DNA of 64,000 nucleotides. It comes from an uncultured Prolixibacteraceae bacterium. Lineage in GTDB: Bacteria; Bacteroidota; Bacteroidia; Bacteroidales; Prolixibacteraceae. Position numbers and translations under genes: made by a program. A model generated the notes under the pieces. It did not search any database. It was not told where the DNA came from and saw only the letters and a list, made by a program, of their open reading frames with translations. Within the stretch, counting starts at the first letter, position 1. The number at the start of each line of letters is the position of its first letter. Location: the NCBI GenBank assembly GCA_913063265.1, contig CAJXZG010000016.1, positions 1-64,000 of the forward strand. The letters run 5' to 3'. This document shows, piece after piece, positions 8,435 to 62,884 of this stretch.

Positions 8435-9127
8435 TTAAAGAGAAATACCTGCAGTAATGAAGAATCCTCCTGTTGAAGGATTAAGGATTACAGCTCCCGA
8501 CACAGGAAGTGCAAAACTTTCAGTAATTGGAATCTCTTTTGATGTTCCTACACTTATAACGCATACTGTAAATTTGCCGTCACTTGTATATTGTCCATCT
8601 CCAGCTCCCAGTGCCACATCTACATGTTTGAACGAATAACCAGCTTCAAAATACATGTCTCCGTTTTCTCCAAATTTTGTAGCAGGAGTATCTTCTGTTG
8701 CCTCAGTTGCAGGAAGAAACATGTAATAACCTGCAATGCTAAAACCACCAATCCCAAAAGATAAACTTGGTTCTAGAAAATGATTCATTTCGTATGATGT
8801 CCAATCACCACCAAAATAGTAGTCAGTTAATCCAATACTAAAACCACCAATAGAATAACTTGCATAAAGGTCCATTTCCAATGCTTCATTTGACGATGCG
8901 CTTATAGAACCCCAGCCGCCAATTTCAAAACCACCTGTTGCAAAACTTACATAAGGTTGAAAAGCAGGTCCTGATCCAAATTTAGCACCACGCCAAATGT
9001 AGCTGCTATAAATGTCTAAACCAGTATCCCAGGAACTACCTCCTTCTTCATCCTGAGCTTTTAAAGTTGGTGCAATGACTAACATTAATAAAAACAAGCT
9101 TGTTGTAATCAATAGTGTCTTTTTCAT
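8435..9127 (-). CDS. Putative outer-membrane porin (TorF/Gcw_chp-like) of the ammonium operon
   Basis: A 230-residue protein with a classic signal peptide (MKKTLLITTSLFLLMLVIAP, cleavage near LKAQ). The mature part is built of alternating beta strands rich in Gly and aromatic residues (SSYIWRGAKFGSGPAFQP, GGFEIGGWGSISAS, GGFSIGLTDYYFGG) and ends in a strand finishing ITAGISL, like a small outer-membrane barrel. The YIWRG start resembles the TorF/Gcw_chp putative porin family. As first gene of the porin-glnK-amt operon it may let ammonium or small nitrogen compounds cross the outer membrane. That role is inferred from context only. Confidence 0.8.
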   Translation of the reverse strand: MKKTLLITTSLFLLMLVIAPTLKAQDEEGGSSWDTGLDIYSSYIWRGAKFGSGPAFQPYVSFATGGFEIGGWGSISASSNEALEMDLYASYSIGGFSIGLTDYYFGGDWTSYEMNHFLEPSLSFGIGGFSIAGYYMFLPATEATEDTPATKFGENGDMYFEAGYSFKHVDVALGAGDGQYTSDGKFTVCVISVGTSKEIPITESFALPVSGAVILNPSTGGFFITAGISL

Positions 9128-24191: not shown

Positions 24192-25061
24192 ATGAGAAAA
24201 TTAACGTATGCCATTCTGGCAATTTCTTTTATTCTTTTTTCGGCATTTAAAACCAATAAGCCAGCTTATTCCCTTTATAATGAGAAAGGAAAAGATATTA
24301 AATATGACAAACTGTTAAAACAAGCTCTGGAAGCTGATATTGTTCTTTTTGGTGAGTTGCACGATAACGCCATTGCACATTGGCTGCAGTTGGAATTAAC
24401 AAAAGATTTGTATGAAGTAAAAAAAGAAAATCTGATACTTGGCGCAGAAATGTTTGAAAGTGATAACCAGGTAATTTTAGATGAATATTTAAATGGATTG
24501 ATTTCTCAAAGTAGTTTTGAAAAAGAAGTAAGGTTATGGCCAAACTACAAAACGGATTATAAACCTTTGGTGGAGTTTGCGAAGAAAAACAATTTAATTT
24601 TTGTAGCAACGAATATTCCTCGTAGGTATGCAGCATTGGTTAATAAGAAAGGATTTGAAGGATTAGAAGATTTATCGGACAATGCAAGAGAGTTTATCCC
24701 ACCCTTACCTATTCAATATGATTCAACTTTAAACAGTTACAAAAGTATGATGGAAATGACGGGTATGGGGAGCCATGTAACTCCAAATTTTCCAAAGGCA
24801 CAGGCTGTAAAAGATGCCACTATGGCTTATCATATTATGGAATACTGGGAAAATGGAAAATCACTGATTCATTATCATGGCGCTTATCATTCTCAGGATT
24901 ACGAAAGTATTTACTGGTATTTAAAACAAGCCAATCCAGAGCTTAAAATTGTAACCATTCATACAGTTTCTCAGGAAGATATCTCCACGTTGGAGGAGAG
25001 TAATACCGGCAAAGCAGATTTTACCATTTGTGTGGATAAGGATATGACAAAAACAAGATAA
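24192..25061 (+). CDS. ChaN-family (DUF399) haem-binding-like lipoprotein or exported protein
   Basis: About 289 residues from the ATG at 24192; an upstream TTG would only extend into the promoter. The N terminus, MRKLTYAILAISFILFSAF, is a signal or anchor sequence without an obvious lipobox Cys. The core has the ChaN/Tiki signature GELHDNAIAHWLQLEL near residue 55, LILGAEMFESDNQ, and the late histidine motif IHYHGAYHSQDYESI. ChaN of Campylobacter binds haem as a dimer and is linked to iron uptake; others in the superfamily are metalloproteases, and the paired E/H residues are kept here. It ends four bases before the convergent DUF4136 gene. Confidence 0.85.
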   Translation: MRKLTYAILAISFILFSAFKTNKPAYSLYNEKGKDIKYDKLLKQALEADIVLFGELHDNAIAHWLQLELTKDLYEVKKENLILGAEMFESDNQVILDEYLNGLISQSSFEKEVRLWPNYKTDYKPLVEFAKKNNLIFVATNIPRRYAALVNKKGFEGLEDLSDNAREFIPPLPIQYDSTLNSYKSMMEMTGMGSHVTPNFPKAQAVKDATMAYHIMEYWENGKSLIHYHGAYHSQDYESIYWYLKQANPELKIVTIHTVSQEDISTLEESNTGKADFTICVDKDMTKTR

Positions 25062-25065
25062 TTGT

Positions 25066-25665
25066 TTATTTTATCGGGTAGGTTTTCATGATTTTTTTTA
25101 CTGCTCTTTTTATATCATCATCCATAGTTTGAGAGTTTAAATTTGTAGTTTTCATTGCCACGGTTTCCCAAATTAATTCCTCTTTTTTTGCATCGTAAGC
25201 CGAGACAATTAAAGTACCTTCATTAAAAACTCTTTCTCCCTGTGTTGTGCCGGTAATTGCAAATCCGGGTCCCCAACCGTATCCCGGTCCAAAACCATAG
25301 TACATTCCATAGCCATATCCGTATCCGTACATCCCAAACCGGGTATTTCCGCCAATGTAGGTAGATTGAGTTTGAGTAAATGTTTCTTTCCGTTTCTCGG
25401 TAACCATAAATAAACTGATGATGATATCACCTTCGCCTTCTTTAACCACTTCAAGCCCTCTTTTCTTAAACTCATTTTGAAAAGCTGACTCAATTCTTTT
25501 TTTGCTGAACATGTTCCCAAATATGTCACCGTCAGTCCAGCCATAAAATTCTACGGTTTTGTATTGTGAAAAATCGATACTTTTGTTGTATTCATTTAAC
25601 ACAGTTAAGGGATTGCAGGAAATAATAACAAGTCCGGTAAAAATTATCAGGAGAATTTTTTTCAT
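25066..25665 (-). CDS. DUF4136 lipoprotein
   Basis: 199 residues with a lipoprotein signal, MKKILLIIFTGLVIISC, Cys17 being the lipidated residue. The opening of the mature domain (IDFSQYKTVEFYGW) and the Gly/Tyr-rich loop YGYGYGMYYGFGPGYGWGPG are usual in DUF4136 envelope proteins of unknown role. The domain ends with TLIVSAYDAKKEELIWE and the KRAVKKIMKTYP tail helix. No functional partner is obvious nearby. Confidence 0.88.
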   Translation of the reverse strand: MKKILLIIFTGLVIISCNPLTVLNEYNKSIDFSQYKTVEFYGWTDGDIFGNMFSKKRIESAFQNEFKKRGLEVVKEGEGDIIISLFMVTEKRKETFTQTQSTYIGGNTRFGMYGYGYGYGMYYGFGPGYGWGPGFAITGTTQGERVFNEGTLIVSAYDAKKEELIWETVAMKTTNLNSQTMDDDIKRAVKKIMKTYPIK

Positions 25666-25791: not shown

Positions 25792-26271
25792 TTAATGTTT
25801 GTGACTTTCAAAGTACGTATGTTCAAACGCATGTAGTTTTTCTCTCATGTATTCCACATTTGCTACATCTGTGGTTTGTTTGCTTTTCATTGCAAATACC
25901 AGAATGTTGTGTAACAACTCCAGTTGTTTTGTATATTTTCTGTACGCTTCCTCATCACTTGCTGAAGTTGGTTTAATACGTTGGTGTAAAAAATACTGAC
26001 TAACAATATCCTGTACTTCCAGTGCATGTTGTTCTTTGTTGTTTACCCAACGAACCAACTGGTTATAATCCGGATTTTCCTGAGATGACAATTCTTTAAT
26101 TTGGTTCATCGATTTTTCGATAGTAGTAAAATGTTCGTACAATAAAGCCACACGAACCGAATCTCCGTAAATCCCACAAGGAATTTCACAATGTGCCTGC
26201 GATTCCAGACTTGATAAGCTTAATATTCCAACTAAAAAAACTGCTGTAAAAAGTTGAGTTAATTTTTTCAT
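25792..26271 (-). CDS. sodN: Exported nickel superoxide dismutase (Ni-SOD)
   Basis: 159 residues. Residues 1-26 are a Sec signal peptide ending SQA. Cleavage there would expose HCEIPCGIY, the Ni-hook of NiSOD (HCxxPCGxY). His27, Cys28 and Cys32 of the precursor would be His1, Cys2 and Cys6 of the mature enzyme, which bind Ni through the free N-terminal amine. The rest is the four-helix bundle of the family, with IEKSMNQIKEL and NQLVRWVNNKEQHALEVQDIVSQYFL. In actinomycetes the leader is removed by the SodX protease; here signal peptidase I would do it and place the enzyme in the periplasm. No sodX-like gene is adjacent. Confidence 0.9.
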   Translation of the reverse strand: MKKLTQLFTAVFLVGILSLSSLESQAHCEIPCGIYGDSVRVALLYEHFTTIEKSMNQIKELSSQENPDYNQLVRWVNNKEQHALEVQDIVSQYFLHQRIKPTSASDEEAYRKYTKQLELLHNILVFAMKSKQTTDVANVEYMREKLHAFEHTYFESHKH

Positions 26272-26592: not shown

Positions 26593-27372
26593 ATGCTAAA
26601 TCAACAGGGAATTTCGAAGGTAATAAGTGTCTGGGAATCTGGTAATAAGATTCAGAATCCGGTAAAAAAGGAACTTTTTCTGGATATTATAGAACAAATG
26701 GCAAATCTGTTTTCAGCCGGTTCATACTATTATTATATTATGGATTTTGAGAATCTGGAACTCAATATTGTTAGTGAAAGTGTTAAATCAATACTGGGGA
26801 TTGAACCGGGTATTTACGCCGTAAGTAAGCTGTTGGAGATTATGCATCCCGATGATATTGCGAAAATGCATGAAAAGGAAACTGTAGCAGGTGAATTTCT
26901 TTTTAAAAAAATTTCTAAAGAACAAATTCCACATTATAAAGTAGTGTATTTAATGCGAATGAGACACTCTGATGGTAGCTACAAAACGATTTTGCATCAG
27001 GCTAAAACCCTTGTACTTTCTAATGACGGTAAAATTCAAAAAACTCTTGGAATACATACTGATGTCACATATTTAAATATGCCGGTTGACCATAAAATTT
27101 CTTTTTTAAGTACAAAGTATCCATCGTATCATTCTATACAAGTTGGTGAGCGTCTTGAGCTAAATGAAAAAACCAGTCTGGACTCTATGACAAAACGTGA
27201 AAAAGAGATTGTTATGTTACTTTCGCAAGGGAAAAATTTTAACGAAATGGCCCAAATTCTGAATGTTTCACCACATACTGTTAATACGCATAAAAGGAAT
27301 ATTTTAAAAAAATCGAATTGCCACAATACCACTGAACTGGTTGCACGTTGTATTAGAGAAGGTGCGATTTAA
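26593..27372 (+). CDS. PAS-domain LuxR-family transcriptional regulator
   Basis: 259 residues. Residues about 45-180 form a PAS fold (SYYYYIMDFENLELNIVSESVKSILGIEPG ... MHPDDIAKMHEKE ... GIHTDVTYL), a likely ligand or redox sensor. Residues about 195-259 are a LuxR-type helix-turn-helix: LDSMTKREKEIVMLLSQGKNFNEMAQ, then the recognition helix VSPHTVNTHKRNI. There is no receiver domain, so it is not a classical response regulator. It is divergent from sodN and convergent with the DUF5916 gene, so it could control sodN; that is positional inference only. Confidence 0.9.
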   Translation: MLNQQGISKVISVWESGNKIQNPVKKELFLDIIEQMANLFSAGSYYYYIMDFENLELNIVSESVKSILGIEPGIYAVSKLLEIMHPDDIAKMHEKETVAGEFLFKKISKEQIPHYKVVYLMRMRHSDGSYKTILHQAKTLVLSNDGKIQKTLGIHTDVTYLNMPVDHKISFLSTKYPSYHSIQVGERLELNEKTSLDSMTKREKEIVMLLSQGKNFNEMAQILNVSPHTVNTHKRNILKKSNCHNTTELVARCIREGAI

Positions 27373-27380
27373 CCTTATTC

Positions 27381-29420
27381 TTATTTTAGAATTGTGATCG
27401 GATAGGTAAGTTTTACAAAAAAGTTGTGAGTATCGGGTATTTCAGTTTCATTGCCAAAATTATCATGAGAATAGATTAAATACAAAGCCCCAAATGGTGG
27501 TTTAAACCGCCAACCCAGTAACCCGTATAAATAAATATTTTCGTTTTTGGTATTGTTTTGTGCAAACAGTTTTAACCACAAATCTTTTGTGAAATTGTAA
27601 TTGGCCTCAAAAACATTAATAAAGGTAGTTTCGTTTTCTGGATCAGGATTAAATTCCAGATAATTGCCGGAATAACTCAAAGACAAATTCTGAAACAATT
27701 TTACACGTCCGCCTGCTGTAAATAAATTAAATTCCCTGTCAAAATTCCTTCCTGTTGAATAAGCAATCGCCGCATGACTCCACTCTTCAGTGTTATAACC
27801 CAAACCAAAAATATGCCTGTAATTGTAAAATCTCTTTTCAAATAGCTTGTATTCGTTGTTATAAGCATATTCAAAATTAATTTTGTTTTTAAAATAGAAA
27901 TTTGCCGAATTCGTAAAATACCAGCTTCTAAGATGTCCATTTGCCAAACTCCAGAATACATTGTTTCTGCTTTCTGCCTCAATGTATTCAAAAGTATTGT
28001 TTTTAATCCACCATCTGTAAGATAAATCACTGTCTATTTCCCGACGGTCATCGTCGGTAATAAATCCTGTTTGATTTACATTTTCTCTAAAATTTTCTCC
28101 AATTTCTGTATACCTGAAATGAATATGATATTTATTATTTTCTTTTGCAAAACGCATAAACCAGGCACTGTGACTCAAAAAGTCTCCCGGTGCACTGCCC
28201 ACAAACTGCCCGGTCAATTTCCATGTTTTTCCAAGATTTAAAAGATAATCTAAACTAAACGAACGGCTAAAACCATCATTCCAGCTTTTGTCAACAAAAG
28301 TAAATCCTAACGAAGATGATTTCAGGAAATCAAATTTTGCCCTTGCTGCAGTGTACCAGGTGGTAGGCTCTTCATCCGATAAATGAGGTGTTTTAACATT
28401 AAGTATATTAAACTGAGTTGGCCCGATTTTTCCGTTAATCCTCCCTCCAAAATCGATATCCTGGATTCTGCGTGAATAAAATGTTCGTATCCTTGTATTA
28501 TACATTTCATTTCCCTCCTGAAAAAAAAGTCGTTTTTCAGGGTAACTCAATTCGTATCTTGTTAAATTTATTCGTTGTTGATCGGCTTCTACTGTGGCAA
28601 AATCGGGATTTATTGTGCCGTTAAATGATATGTTCGGACTGATTTGCCAACGAATATCTCCTCCACCATCAACACTCCAGTTTTCAGCACTTGTTTTAAA
28701 CAATGACAGGTAAGGGAAAAGTGAAAGTTTCATTTTTGATTTTGGTGTGCTCATACCATTTGCAGTGCCTCCCTGAGAAATCCTGAAATCATCTGACAAT
28801 TCTCCCGACCACCATGAGGTTTCCATGTTTGACTTGATCACCCTGCCAAAATTTAAACCCCAGCTCTCTATGCCTCTTTTATATTTTATACTTCTAAAAG
28901 GAATTTCAAATTCTGCACACCAGCCCCATTCATATATTTTAGCACTGCATTTCCATTCTGTATCCCAGTTGGTGTCCGTATTTCTTCCGTCATCGTTAAT
29001 TTTCAAATCGTATTGAGTTCCCAGGGGATTCGTAATAAAGGCATACCCGCTTCGGTTGTCATTATAGGTATCAAGAATTATGGCAATCAAATCATCATCT
29101 TTGTTTAAGGCATCGCGACTTTGATTTTTAGCTACGATTGGTGCAGATTGATAACACATGAAAACAAAATAGATTTTATCGTTTTTTAATCCCATATACA
29201 CCACTGTTTTTTCGCTTGCCAAATTACCGGTTTGTGGCTCCATTTGGGTAAAATTAGAACTGCTGTCAGCAGCTATCCATTTTTCAGCTTCAAATTTGCC
29301 GTCGATAACTACGGATTCTTCCAGCTGAAAAACCTGCATCATTTTCTGAGCCTCTGTTTTTTTGCATAAGAATAAGGCAAGCAGAACGAAGGCAAGCCGC
29401 AAATGAATAGAATGATACAA
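27381..29420 (-). CDS. DUF5916 outer-membrane protein with N-terminal CBM9-like domain
   Basis: About 679 residues. A signal peptide (LRLAFVLLALFLCKKTEAQ) is followed by a CBM9-like domain (VVIDGKFEAEKWIAADSSSNFTQMEP ... GTQYDLKINDDGRN) and then a long barrel-like region rich in aromatic strands, ending in KLTYPITILK. This architecture is DUF5916, common in Bacteroidota and of unknown substrate. No in-frame ATG precedes the signal peptide: the candidate starts are TTG at 29420 or TTG at 29402, and the second gives the tighter signal peptide. It ends eight bases from the convergent regulator gene. Confidence 0.85.
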   Translation of the reverse strand: MYHSIHLRLAFVLLALFLCKKTEAQKMMQVFQLEESVVIDGKFEAEKWIAADSSSNFTQMEPQTGNLASEKTVVYMGLKNDKIYFVFMCYQSAPIVAKNQSRDALNKDDDLIAIILDTYNDNRSGYAFITNPLGTQYDLKINDDGRNTDTNWDTEWKCSAKIYEWGWCAEFEIPFRSIKYKRGIESWGLNFGRVIKSNMETSWWSGELSDDFRISQGGTANGMSTPKSKMKLSLFPYLSLFKTSAENWSVDGGGDIRWQISPNISFNGTINPDFATVEADQQRINLTRYELSYPEKRLFFQEGNEMYNTRIRTFYSRRIQDIDFGGRINGKIGPTQFNILNVKTPHLSDEEPTTWYTAARAKFDFLKSSSLGFTFVDKSWNDGFSRSFSLDYLLNLGKTWKLTGQFVGSAPGDFLSHSAWFMRFAKENNKYHIHFRYTEIGENFRENVNQTGFITDDDRREIDSDLSYRWWIKNNTFEYIEAESRNNVFWSLANGHLRSWYFTNSANFYFKNKINFEYAYNNEYKLFEKRFYNYRHIFGLGYNTEEWSHAAIAYSTGRNFDREFNLFTAGGRVKLFQNLSLSYSGNYLEFNPDPENETTFINVFEANYNFTKDLWLKLFAQNNTKNENIYLYGLLGWRFKPPFGALYLIYSHDNFGNETEIPDTHNFFVKLTYPITILK

Positions 29421-33080: not shown

Positions 33081-33608
33081 TTAATTTTTCTTCAATAAGT
33101 TTCTTCCAAAACAAGCCATTTCTTTACCAGGGAAACCAACATCGAAAAGTGTTTCAATTTCTGAATTTGAATGAATTTGAATGGTAAATCGTGCTTTTCC
33201 TCCGGGGACAAAGTTTTCAATTATTTCCGATTCAAAAACAAAAGATTTTTCTGAAGAAAGAGTGTCGTTTAAAATATATTGATTTACAAATCCTTCGATA
33301 TGAAATTGTCTGAAAACTATCTTTTTCCTGGCTTTGTCGAAACTAATAATTCCCCAGTCTTTGTGAACTTCGCTTTCAGGTTTTGCCTCCGTTGGGTCAA
33401 ATTCAGAATGATTTTTAACTTCTATAAACTGTTTGTTCATTATCCAGTTAAATTCAGACTGAATTTTTGATTTATTAGAACTAAAACCTTCTCCGTTTCC
33501 TTCCCAGTGGCCGATTAATAAATCGAATTTTTCCAAAGGATTTTCCTGTGTTAATCCATGAACTGAAATCAGACAGAAAAAAACGATAATAAGCAGTTGT
33601 TTCTTCAT
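33081..33608 (-). CDS. Exported lipocalin/DUF1579-like protein
   Basis: 175 residues with a cleavable signal peptide (MKKQLLIIVFFCLISVHGLTQ). The mature protein begins with FDLLIGHWEGNGEGFS, a pattern shared by DUF1579 and nitrobindin-like small beta barrels, and continues as alternating strands (KIVFRQFHIEGFVNQYIL, RFTIQIHS). A haem ligand cannot be assigned. It is unlinked to mnmA in function, lying 51 bases upstream of it, and follows the beta-barrel gene by two bases, so those two may be co-transcribed. Confidence 0.75.
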   Translation of the reverse strand: MKKQLLIIVFFCLISVHGLTQENPLEKFDLLIGHWEGNGEGFSSNKSKIQSEFNWIMNKQFIEVKNHSEFDPTEAKPESEVHKDWGIISFDKARKKIVFRQFHIEGFVNQYILNDTLSSEKSFVFESEIIENFVPGGKARFTIQIHSNSEIETLFDVGFPGKEMACFGRNLLKKN

Positions 33609-44554: not shown

Positions 44555-47503
44555 TCAATTTTCGCTTGTTTTTAAACTGTCATAAATTTTCTGATGTATT
44601 GCTGTTCTGATATTTAGATCGTACAACTTCCCATTTTCCCGGGTTGGATAAACCCGGTTTGAAAGAAAGATGTACAGGAGTCCGTTATCGGGGTCAGCCC
44701 ATACAAAAGTTCCTGTAAACCCGGAATGCCCAAAACTGTTTTTGCTTGCATCAATTGCCGGATAGGCATCCTTCAGACTATTTTCTTCATTGTCAATATA
44801 CGGTTTGTCAAATCCAAGTCCACGTCGGTTATCGTTATCCGGAAACTGAATTTTTGTAAATTCTTCTATTGTAGTATCAGAAATAAACCGGTTTCCGCCA
44901 TAATACCCTTTTTGCAGATACATCTGGAATATTTTTGCCAAGTCGTTGGCTGTGCCAAACAATCCTGCATTTCCCGAAACACCGCCCATCATTGCAGCTC
45001 CTTCGTCGTGAACAAATCCACGCATAATTTCATGTCTGAAAAATTCATCAACTTCGGTTGGAATAATCCTCTCTGGCGGAAAGTTTTTGTATGCGTTAAA
45101 GCATACAGAATTTGCTCCAAGCGGTTTTAAAAAATTTCTATTTAAATAGAACTCATAATCCTCTCCTGTTTGTTCTGAAATAAGGCCGGGGAAAAGATGA
45201 AAACCTAAATCAGAATACATATACTTCTTTCTTTTATTCAGAGGTGATTTTATTATCGTATCGAAAATTGCCGTTGTATAATCTTCATTCATATACAAAT
45301 GCTCCGATACTCTGATATTAAATTTTTCAAAAGGATTGTCTGAAAAAATAGATTTGTCCAGTTCCTGGTTTTCATCCAGCGTAAATTGCCAAAAAGGTAT
45401 CCAGCTTTTTAACCTGGCTTGATGAGCAAGAATTTCCCGCATTGAAAGTTGTTCTTTATTAGAACCGCTTAGATCATGTCTGTATAAACTGATGGGTGAA
45501 TCAATGTCAATTTTTTTTTCATCAACGAGTTTCATAATTGCCGGAAGTGCCCCCGTAACTTTTGATATTGAAGCCCAATCGTAAATGTCGTTTTTCTTAA
45601 CATCCACTGAATCTTCATATGTATGAGTTCCAAATGTTTTATGAAAAAAGACTTTTCCGTTTTTGGCGATTAACACTTGACAACCCGGGTATGCTTTTTT
45701 GTTTATTCCTAAGTTGGCCAGTGAATCGATTTCATAATTCAATAATTCTGAATTAATTCCAATTTCTTCTGGAATTGTGTATGACAATGAAAAATTTTGT
45801 GAGATATCAATTCCGTCATTTACTTTAAACCAATTGTCAATAGTAACCGGTAATTTACCTTTTGCATCGAAAGCACCAAATATCAGTTGAGCGGCAAGTT
45901 CCTGGCTCAAATTTGTATTTTGATAGGCAAGAATTAATCCGTTGGCTCTGTTAATATCTTTAAAATATTTTAGCGCATACGCATTGCCAAAAAACACAAA
46001 AACCGAGTTTTTATTTCGAATGATTTCATCTACTGCTTTTCTCTGTATTTCTGTTGTTCCATATTTTGATGAAGGATAAAGATTAATTCCCTGAATTCCT
46101 GAGATAATAAGATTATAGTTCTTTAATTGAGATTGGATATTGTTCCAAACTTCCTGATCAGCTCCTTTTGAAAGCACAAAATGATCTACATCAGCATATT
46201 TTTCCAACATTCTTTGAAAAGGAGAGATGTTGTTTCCTCCTATCATAATTGATGCAATTTTTAAGGTGTCCAGACCCTGAACAGGCAGGATACCTGTATT
46301 TTTCAGTGCAGTCAATGAACCCTTTATAATCCGTCTGTTACTAACTTCAATGTTTGGATTATTAAGTCTTTTTGTTAATGCGGTAAGGTCTGTTGGTACA
46401 TATTCGTGAAGCTTAACCCAACGTTTCAGGGCTAAAATTGTAGTACACTTTTTATCAATTTCATCAATCGTAATTTTTCCCTGTTCCACTGCAGTTTTTA
46501 CGGATTCAATTGCTTTGGGTAAATCGGGTACAAATTCCAGCATGTCGTTTCCTGCAATCAATGCTTCGACTTCTGCATTTCCTTTTTCTGTTCTTACACC
46601 TGCCATGTTTATAGCATCTGTAACCACAAAACCTTTAAAACCTATTTCATTTCGTAAATAATTATTTACTATATTTTTCGAAAGTGAAGAAGGAACTCCG
46701 GAACTGTCGATTGAAGGAACATTTAAATGTGCCGTCATGATACCTGAGATTCCTCTTTCTGCTGCATAGCGAAAAGGGTACGATTCAAGTGTGTCCATTC
46801 TTATTTTCGAATGTTTTAAAAAAGGTAGGGTTTTGTGCGAATCTGTATCTGTGTCTCCATGACCCGGGAAATGTTTGGCAACAGGTATAATTCCGTTATC
46901 CTGCATTCCTTTGGATATCCACCATACTTTTTTTGCAACATTATTTTTGTTTTCACCAAAGGATCTAAAGTTAATCACCGGATTTTGTGGATTTGTATTT
47001 ATATCGGCAACCGGAGCAAAATTTATATGAATCCCCATCATTTTTAGCTGGCTGGCCATTTTTTGTCCCAGATCATAAACAAGTGCAGAATCCTGAACTG
47101 CACCAATAGCCTGGGCATAAGGCAATTTCATTACACTATCGATACGCATGGAAATTCCCCATTCCCCATCAATTGCAACTAACAACGGTATTTTTGTAGA
47201 GTCCTGGAATTCATTTACCCATTTTGCAGTTTTTACAGGTGTTCCCTGCATAACCAAAATTCCACCCGGTTTATACTTTTTAATGAGGTCAAGAACCTTT
47301 TGCTTGCTTGCTTCATTTTGTTTGGGGTAAACAGTTATGGTCATCAACTGACCAATTTTTTCCTCCAATGTCATTTTACTTACCTGCTCAATGACCCATG
47401 AATCGGTTTTAAATTTCAAAAAAGGTGGTTCTCCTGTCTCCGAAGCTGTTATTTTTATTGTAAATAAAACTATTATCAATAGTAATTTTCCCCTAATCCT
47501 CAT
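44555..47503 (-). CDS. GH3 beta-N-acetylglucosaminidase (NagZ-like) fused to a serine hydrolase (AmiE-like)
   Basis: 982 residues. Residues 1-20 are a signal peptide (cleavage near ITAS). Residues about 30-370 are a GH3 domain with KHFPGHGDTDTDSHKTLP, the NagZ-type His/Asp loop, and nucleophile Asp296 in VVTDAINMAGV. A GH3 C-terminal alpha/beta sandwich follows to about 580. Residues about 590-975 are a class C beta-lactamase fold: Ser645-x-x-Lys648 (SISK), YSD in place of the usual YxN, and HSGFTGT as the KTG-like triad. In Bacillus, NagZ and the lactamase-fold amidase AmiE are separate neighbours that, with NamZ, dismantle peptidoglycan. NamZ is divergent next door. Confidence 0.88.
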   Translation of the reverse strand: MRIRGKLLLIIVLFTIKITASETGEPPFLKFKTDSWVIEQVSKMTLEEKIGQLMTITVYPKQNEASKQKVLDLIKKYKPGGILVMQGTPVKTAKWVNEFQDSTKIPLLVAIDGEWGISMRIDSVMKLPYAQAIGAVQDSALVYDLGQKMASQLKMMGIHINFAPVADINTNPQNPVINFRSFGENKNNVAKKVWWISKGMQDNGIIPVAKHFPGHGDTDTDSHKTLPFLKHSKIRMDTLESYPFRYAAERGISGIMTAHLNVPSIDSSGVPSSLSKNIVNNYLRNEIGFKGFVVTDAINMAGVRTEKGNAEVEALIAGNDMLEFVPDLPKAIESVKTAVEQGKITIDEIDKKCTTILALKRWVKLHEYVPTDLTALTKRLNNPNIEVSNRRIIKGSLTALKNTGILPVQGLDTLKIASIMIGGNNISPFQRMLEKYADVDHFVLSKGADQEVWNNIQSQLKNYNLIISGIQGINLYPSSKYGTTEIQRKAVDEIIRNKNSVFVFFGNAYALKYFKDINRANGLILAYQNTNLSQELAAQLIFGAFDAKGKLPVTIDNWFKVNDGIDISQNFSLSYTIPEEIGINSELLNYEIDSLANLGINKKAYPGCQVLIAKNGKVFFHKTFGTHTYEDSVDVKKNDIYDWASISKVTGALPAIMKLVDEKKIDIDSPISLYRHDLSGSNKEQLSMREILAHQARLKSWIPFWQFTLDENQELDKSIFSDNPFEKFNIRVSEHLYMNEDYTTAIFDTIIKSPLNKRKKYMYSDLGFHLFPGLISEQTGEDYEFYLNRNFLKPLGANSVCFNAYKNFPPERIIPTEVDEFFRHEIMRGFVHDEGAAMMGGVSGNAGLFGTANDLAKIFQMYLQKGYYGGNRFISDTTIEEFTKIQFPDNDNRRGLGFDKPYIDNEENSLKDAYPAIDASKNSFGHSGFTGTFVWADPDNGLLYIFLSNRVYPTRENGKLYDLNIRTAIHQKIYDSLKTSEN

Positions 47504-61705: not shown

Positions 61706-62884
61706 ATGAATCAATTTTTTCGAATAGTATTACTTCTTACAATGACTGTTGGCCTCTCGGAAGGTCTTTGGGCACAGGCCACAACCTCGGGAGCCAATAC
61801 AATAACAACAGCTGTTCCGTTTTTATCAATTACTCCGGATTCGAGAGCGGGAGGTATGGGTGATGCCGGTGTTGGTTTAACCCCGGATGTAAGTTCTCAA
61901 CACTGGAACCTGGCAAAATATGTTTTTATGGAAAGCGATATGGGAGTAGGTTTGTCATATTCGCCCTGGTTAAGAAACCTTGTTGATGACATAAACTTAG
62001 CATATCTGTCAGGCTACAAAAAGCTGGACGATGTTCAATCTGTAAGTGCTTCGTTACGTTATTTCTCTTTAGGAGATATTATTTTCACCAGCGAATGGGG
62101 AGAAATTCAGGGACAGCAAAGTCCGAATGAATTTGCGGTTGACCTTGGATATTCAAGAAAACTTTCTGAAGCGTTTTCCGGTGGTGTGGCCATGCGTTAC
62201 ATACGTTCTGACCTTACCGGTGGACAAATGATTAATGGAGTGGAAACGAAAGCGGGTAATTCATTTGCTGTGGACGTGGCTTTCTATTGGTTTAAAGAAT
62301 TTAGAAAAAACAGAAAAGATAATATTTTTAGTGCGGGTATAAATATTCAGAATATCGGTTCGAAAATCTCATATACTGATGGCGCTACCAAAGATTTTAT
62401 CCCAACTAATTTAATGCTTGGAGCCGCTTACACAACTTATTTAGACAATTACAATTCTTTTGCATTCTCTTTTGAAGCAAATAAACTTTTGGTGCCAACT
62501 CCTCCTAAAGATTCTACAATTTACGATCCGGACAAACCTATTTTACCTGGAGGAATCAATTCGGATATAGGGCCAATCGAAGGAATGATTAAATCTTTCT
62601 ACGATGCTCCCGGAGGATTTAAAGAAGAATTACAAGAAATTAACTTTGGATTAGGTGTGGAATATTGGTATAATCAACAATTTGCGCTTCGACTGGGATA
62701 TTTTTATGAGCACGAGAATAAGGGAAACCGAAAATATTTTACAGCAGGTGCAGGATTAAAACTCAATGTTTTTGCATTGGATTTTTCATACCTGCTTCCA
62801 ACACAACGTAACCACCCACTGGAAAATACTCTTAGATTTACGCTTGCATTCGATATTGATGCATTTGGAAACCAACGCCGATGA
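61706..62884 (+). CDS. porV: PorV outer-membrane shuttle protein of the type IX secretion system
   Basis: 392 residues with a signal peptide (cleavage near LWAQ). PorV/LptO is a FadL-like 14-strand barrel that carries cargo from the SprA translocon to PorU. The opening AVPFLSITPDSRAGGMGDAGVGLTPDVSSQHWNLAKY is the PorV/PorQ signature. It continues as strands to a terminal TLRFTLAFDIDAFGNQRR. It overlaps ispF by four bases (ATGA), although ispF is unrelated in function. Confidence 0.95.
   Translation: MNQFFRIVLLLTMTVGLSEGLWAQATTSGANTITTAVPFLSITPDSRAGGMGDAGVGLTPDVSSQHWNLAKYVFMESDMGVGLSYSPWLRNLVDDINLAYLSGYKKLDDVQSVSASLRYFSLGDIIFTSEWGEIQGQQSPNEFAVDLGYSRKLSEAFSGGVAMRYIRSDLTGGQMINGVETKAGNSFAVDVAFYWFKEFRKNRKDNIFSAGINIQNIGSKISYTDGATKDFIPTNLMLGAAYTTYLDNYNSFAFSFEANKLLVPTPPKDSTIYDPDKPILPGGINSDIGPIEGMIKSFYDAPGGFKEELQEINFGLGVEYWYNQQFALRLGYFYEHENKGNRKYFTAGAGLKLNVFALDFSYLLPTQRNHPLENTLRFTLAFDIDAFGNQRR

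Follow-up and report, generated by a model that had tools for sequence, protein, structure and literature searches.

The classical nickel superoxide dismutase (Ni-SOD), SodN of Streptomyces and cyanobacteria, comes with SodX, a signal-peptidase-like protease. SodN belongs to family PF09055, is a four-helix bundle, and has the nickel hook HCxxPCG[VI]Y with A-x-A-like residues ahead of its His1. Its third mature residue is Asp, its leader is short and weakly hydrophobic (median 19 residues), a sodX-like open reading frame (ORF) usually lies nearby, and it has no C-terminal His tail. We analysed the Ni-SOD gene in 64,000 nucleotides (the window) from an uncultured Prolixibacteraceae bacterium of the Bacteroidota (GenBank assembly GCA_913063265.1, contig CAJXZG010000016.1, positions 1 to 64,000). 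Its product shares the family, hook, fold and pre-His1 residues of SodN, at 16–29% identity to 19 aligned classical Ni-SODs, but belongs to an apparently exported type that has Glu or Gln as residue 3, a Sec-type leader and no sodX-like neighbour. The best explanation, and in our view the probable one, is that signal peptidase I creates the hook of a Ni-SOD located in the periplasm.

One member of the family, the Roseiconus lacunae Ni-SOD (WP_230780104.1), is reported to have a signal peptide that runs up to His; this peptide served as the bait for signal strapping, a search that retrieved many Ni-SODs (PMC12537917, 2025). With this planctomycete protein in print, an exported Ni-SOD is not wholly unreported. 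The part of that paper available to us does not describe a clade, the absence of sodX, residue 3 or a His tail for the Roseiconus protein, and no paper listed in a literature search that left out most subscription papers describes such an exported clade of Ni-SODs. The Ni-SOD on plasmid pILYOP01 of Ilyobacter polytropus (Fusobacteriota) is 54% identical to the window protein and likewise has a hydrophobic leader, the hook HCEVPCGIY and no sodX match on its plasmid (the chromosome was not searched); it differs in phylum and gene neighbourhood, and its tail holds at most one His.

The window protein, its leader and its hook

The ORF lies where the initial annotation had placed it (Table 1), on the minus strand, with 159 residues and an ATG start. 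The leader, MKKLTQLFTAVFLVGILSLSSLESQA, opens with the basic MKK, continues with a hydrophobic core (best 10-residue Kyte–Doolittle mean 2.77) and ends with S-x-A directly before His27. It thus has the n-, h- and c-regions and the small residues at −3 and −1 of a Sec leader cut by signal peptidase I. Residues compatible with this peptidase under a simple rule stand just before His in 75 of 81 exported-type proteins, with Ala or Ser at −1 in 74 of the 81 ORFs. Since Ala at −1 is also found in 122 of 124 ORFs with Asp as residue 3 (Asp3), and A-x-A-like residues before His are common to both classes, such an ending does not by itself show export; the hydrophobic core does. The earlier description of a Sec leader ending SQA directly ahead of HCEIPCGIY stands as a prediction, upheld by sequence, hydrophobicity and the pattern in the relatives.

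The cut site Ala26|His27 is predicted from the (−3, −1) pattern and its conservation in relatives, and the host genome contains one type I signal peptidase gene (an ORF of 446 residues from its ATG). A motif resembling that of twin-arginine translocation, [ST]RR-x-[FL], occurs in none of the 81 exported-type leaders, six of which contain RR. Six of the 81 proteins, all from Planctomycetota (L053, L213, L228, L229, L232 and L233), do not fit signal peptidase I before His. In L053, L228, L232 and L233 an apparent signal peptide is followed by a pro-segment ending in Pro, Arg, Leu or Arg, so these proteins would need a second protease. Judged by its sequence, the window protein is not of this sort.

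PF09055 matches residues 24–156 of the window protein with 105 bits (E 5.2e-30; cut-off 25), and this is the sole match to the family (E ≤ 0.001) in its genome. The AlphaFold2 model of the mature protein has a mean predicted local distance difference test score of 92.4 and helices at residues 6–36, 43–72, 81–106 and 110–131. With this model, the first nine Foldseek matches were Ni-SOD crystal structures, whose four-helix subunit it reproduces. A PDB search with the single sequence did not find Ni-SOD; a mixed profile (A1) found it, and an exported-type profile (A2) found it weakly (E 0.0042). The closest of 13 named exported-type relatives that we aligned is that of Draconibacterium sp. (L137, 71% identity between mature proteins), an affinity that would probably place the host within or close to Prolixibacteraceae.

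The hook HCEIPCGIY contains His1, Cys2, Pro5, Cys6 and Tyr9. Across 33 aligned sequences of both types H1, C2, P5, C6, G7 and Y9 are invariant, as are E3 and I8 among the 14 exported-type sequences of alignment A2; the sequences of both alignments were collected with the hook pattern, which partly fixes those residues. In a few Planctomycetota proteins Phe replaces Tyr9. For position 3 of the classical enzyme, a D3A mutant has been crystallised, according to its entry (3g50). Two alignments both give Gln66 in place of the classical Asp61, which does not vary across the Asp3 set, retain Tyr62 as Tyr67 and align Arg47 with His56. In the classical enzyme His1, Glu17 and Arg47 form a hydrogen-bond network (PMC5722923); in the exported type the counterpart of Arg47 is an invariant His56, and that of Glu17 is Leu18 or Ala16 depending on the alignment. 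These network residues vary in Asp3-type sequences too (Glu17 in 51%, Arg47 in 50%).

Table 1. Ni-SOD features and adjoining genes in the window
Feature	Position	Strand	Basis or remark
Ni-SOD precursor gene	25792-26271	-	ORF, ATG start, 159 residues and stop
Predicted Sec-type signal peptide, residues 1-26, ending S-Q-A	26194..26271	-	sequence, hydrophobicity, relatives
Nickel hook HCEIPCGIY (residues 1-9 of the mature protein), opening with the codon for the His whose amino group has to be free	26167..26193	-	sequence and alignment
Predicted mature four-helix protein, 133 residues	25795..26193	-	AlphaFold2 model, Foldseek
C-terminal His tail ESHKH	25795..25809	-	tail count in relatives
PAS and LuxR-type regulator gene, divergent	26593-27372	+	PF08447 (PAS_3), PF00196 (GerE)
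ChaN-like gene	24192-25061		neighbour of Ni-SOD
DUF4136 gene	25066-25665		neighbour of Ni-SOD

Two classes of Ni-SOD

We collected 205 hook-bearing Ni-SOD ORFs, leaving out two loci that repeat a genome, and found Asp as mature residue 3 in 124, Glu in 66 and Gln in 15. The best 10-residue mean of leader hydrophobicity was 1.90–3.83 for the Glu3 ORFs and 2.18–3.18 for the Gln3 ORFs. At a threshold of 1.9, drawn after the values had been seen, all 81 Glu/Gln3 ORFs have a hydrophobic leader, against one (L128, 2.12) of the 122 Asp3 ORFs that could be scored, two Asp3 leaders being too short. Within Planctomycetota alone the counts are 35/35 and 0/14. A neighbour search with a hidden Markov model (HMM) built from seven sodX matches, with a distance limit of 1.5 kb, placed a sodX-like ORF near 107 of the 124 Asp3 genes and near none of the 81 Glu/Gln3 genes; when the loci were limited to those flanked by 1.2 kb or more on each side, the counts were 76/81 and 0/50. 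Hydrophobic leader, Glu or Gln at residue 3 and lack of a sodX-like neighbour thus co-occur in 81 of 81 cases, which supports the central proposal of the initial annotation, a predicted export with a hook made by signal peptidase and without sodX.

We also searched whole genomes with the sodX model TIGR02754. The host genome (94% complete) has no match at E ≤ 0.001, which, with the 0/81 above, agrees with the earlier remark that no sodX gene lies beside the window Ni-SOD. In 32 genomes or records with the exported type, among them the Bacteroidota metagenome-assembled genome G522, nothing scored over the cut-off; the best match had 25 bits, and the weak matches were mostly partial and within long ORFs. 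All 18 short-leader genomes, in contrast, had a match scoring 29 bits or more, seven of them over the cut-off. The best match in 16 further exported-type genomes had 27 bits, and one short-leader genome had a match of 54 bits adjoining its Ni-SOD. Among 45 Planctomycetota genomes nine scored over the cut-off, each with a match adjoining an Asp3 gene. An adjacent match is present in 13 of the 14 Planctomycetota genomes with Asp3, and the remaining gene (G1114) lies at a contig end; G1047, a fragment at a contig end, was left unclassified. Across these three genome sets, the sodX cut-off was never passed in a genome whose only Ni-SOD is of the exported type. TIGR02754 had no match in two viral fragments. 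Two viral-classed contigs, L143 (IMGVR_UViG_3300038520_001840) and L144 (IMGVR_UViG_3300030106_007765), each hold an Asp3 Ni-SOD gene of the short-leader type and lack a sodX-like ORF in its vicinity; either the gene is borne by a virus or host DNA was misclassified.

A branch 2.42 changes per column long, with support 100/100, sets the 32 Glu3 sequences apart from the rest in a phylogeny built from 135 mature proteins. A quick tree of 200 proteins, from which hook and tail had been removed, places 79 Glu/Gln3 and 121 Asp3 proteins on opposite sides of one branch (support 100 by the Shimodaira–Hasegawa-like approximate likelihood ratio test, no bootstrap), and Gln3 is scattered on the exported side with at least five changes. 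Because the classes are opposite sides of one branch, the association of leader, residue 3 and sodX mostly reflects one old event rather than 205 independent ones. The window enzyme lies in a well-separated, apparently exported branch without SodX, where sodX is not to be expected, and residue 3, which separates the two classes in the 205-ORF sample, would give a one-letter rule for annotation. Both types occur together in three genomes (G1112, G1203 and G1181). G522 has, besides its exported-type gene, a short-leader Asp3 fragment at a contig end (L022, G522:C52:6-194), which may be a genuine second copy or contamination.

A C-terminal His tail, counted as at least two His beyond the conserved Tyr127 column, was found in 44 of 79 exported-type and none of 121 Asp3 proteins; five of the 205 rows (L013, L022, L033, L085 and L236) were left out because the sequence was cut, short or fused. 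Of the tail residues, 141 of 671 are His in the exported type and 2 of 1291 in the Asp3 type. By phylum, the tail is present in 17/20 exported-type proteins of Bacteroidota, 23/34 of Planctomycetota, 4/24 of those labelled Desulfobacterota/Myxococcota and 0/1 of Fusobacteriota; the Planctomycetota Asp3 proteins have it in 0/14. For background, measured differently, two or more His occur among the last 10 residues of 4 of the 262 neighbouring ORFs. That measure, our first tail criterion (46/80 versus 0/121), was dropped because it counted helix His in L017 and L018. By a rough count, the tail changes at least 16 times on the exported branch (nine counting well-supported branches only), so it comes and goes. 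The tail may have a role in nickel capture; 35 of the 79 exported-type proteins are without it.

Maturation and alternative explanations

We propose that Sec would carry the precursor across the inner membrane and that the general type I signal peptidase, not a dedicated SodX, would cut Ala26|His27 and so free the His1 amino group of HCEIPCGIY. The subunit would fold into the Ni-SOD four-helix bundle, take up Ni(II) outside the cytoplasm and remove superoxide in the periplasm or beyond, where the short His tail may aid nickel capture. For the window protein we infer the actual cut, the location, the nickel occupancy, the SOD activity, the oligomer and the part played by the tail. If this is true, a nickel enzyme could be placed outside the cytoplasm by simple means, its metal site generated by the general secretion protease and no dedicated maturation protease required.

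Several observations qualify this explanation. The sodN equivalog model TIGR02753 gave 48.7 bits (E 8.6e-13) against a curated cut-off of 90, so one of the grounds for refutation named in the initial annotation applies in part: the identity first proposed held for the family and not for the equivalog; on sequence grounds the protein is a Ni-SOD family member beyond the range of that model. Some of the 30 exported-only Planctomycetota genomes have non-adjacent TIGR02754 matches of up to 34 bits, higher than the lowest-scoring adjacent matches in other genomes. We claim no lysine changes around the hook, as one alignment matches Lys52 to Gln61 and Lys64 to Leu/Met69, and the profile alignment leaves Lys52 gapped and sets Lys64 against Lys74. 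This dependence on the alignment and the overlap of sodX scores at their weak end slightly lowered our confidence, in favour of two of the alternatives. The hook surroundings also depart from the classical enzyme, with Asp3 changed to Glu/Gln and Asp61 to Gln66. This departure and the His tail would suit a protein that is exported and cut at His27 but works as a periplasmic nickel (or copper) binder on the Ni-SOD fold, not as an SOD in the cell; secreted N-terminal-His metal binders of other families have been found by signal strapping (PMC12537917). We consider a binder unlikely, as both hook Cys, Pro5, Gly7, Tyr9 and Tyr67 (the Tyr62 counterpart) are kept in 14 aligned exported-type sequences, and the tyrosines are not obviously needed for binding alone.

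The place of the cut could also be different. Signal peptidase cuts in Bacteroidetes are described as following a Q-rule (PMC5837995), and Gln25 stands two residues ahead of His. A cut at Ser24|Gln25 would leave Gln-Ala-His-Cys; the site would then either depend on a second peptidase or stay blocked by pyroglutamate. Gln at or near the likely cut in the predicted exported window proteins at 8438-9127, 33084-33608 and 27384-29420 (minus strand) and 61706-62881 (plus strand) fits the rule, the first, second and last of these counting for such a cut; in the protein at 44558-47503 (minus strand) Gln is not at the likely cut. A cut of this kind in the Ni-SOD seems highly improbable, since it would put Leu22 at −3, a poorer site than Ser24, and Gln is found at −2 in 3 of 32 Glu3 sequences, against 74 of 81 exported-type ORFs with Ala or Ser at −1. 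With the predicted cut, His at +1 is an exception to the rule. It is also very unlikely that the leader stays uncut as an inner-membrane anchor, which would block His1, or that the protein is cytosolic and trimmed by some other protease: residues fitting signal peptidase I exactly before His (75/81) and the lack of above-cut-off sodX in exported-only genomes count against this.

Starting from a periplasmic Ni-SOD matured by signal peptidase I, a broader reading can be offered, tentatively and with more doubt than conviction. The exported type would be one old, self-sufficient form of Ni-SOD, its site built by the general signal peptidase, with nickel captured outside the inner membrane and the repeatedly gained His tail as a built-in loader. 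The change of Asp3 to Glu/Gln and the other changes at the hook would fit the periplasm, and SodX would be a cytosolic counterpart of signal peptidase I, having arisen on the move in or been lost on the move out. The unrooted tree does not settle which form is older.

Other SODs, gene neighbourhood and distribution

The host genome also encodes two Fe/Mn-SODs of 199 and 196 residues without a hydrophobic leader, their genes about 2.4 kb apart (G000:C18:60136-62863). The periplasmic Cu/Zn-SOD (SodC) likewise works outside the cytoplasm, but is of an unrelated family and has no match in this genome. The Ni-SOD is thus the only SOD with an export signal among the SOD families searched. That an exported Ni-SOD replaces SodC found no support, with SodC in 1 of 36 exported-type versus 3 of 40 Ni-SOD-free genomes; it is rare in these 76 genomes either way.

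The PAS-LuxR regulator gene noted initially is indeed divergent from the Ni-SOD gene and has the domains expected, but its role as a regulator of Ni-SOD is unsupported, as it is missing beside the copy in the one same-genus genome examined (L154), where the gene context is otherwise partly shared. A DUF5916 gene is also among the surrounding genes. Clustering by blastp of 28 loci and the window (3 of the 28 without an SOD ORF under the overlap filter) gave no conserved operon or regulator: besides the SOD no cluster extends over more than four loci, and none includes the PAS-LuxR ORF.

PF09055 was found in 3 of 395 genomes drawn from the host phylum and, over the cut-off, in 16 of 295 of the host order (own genome included in both). 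In the phyla that include Desulfoluna and Mariniblastus it was found in 19 of 297 and 46 of 294 genomes, respectively. These HMM searches made no demand on residue 3 and added Gln3. The hook pattern in DNA, which required Asp or Glu at position 3, gave at least 119 stretches of named genomes and two viral contigs, a taxonomic spread that is a sample; such patterns would miss altered hooks. Phages gave no Ni-SOD match. Weak PF09055 matches below the cut-off (L019–L021) were rejected; L019 has no hook and looks methyltransferase-like by eye. One exported-type protein of Planctomycetota (L236, G1018:C111) has a long C-terminal part, its ORF running to 452 residues from His on.
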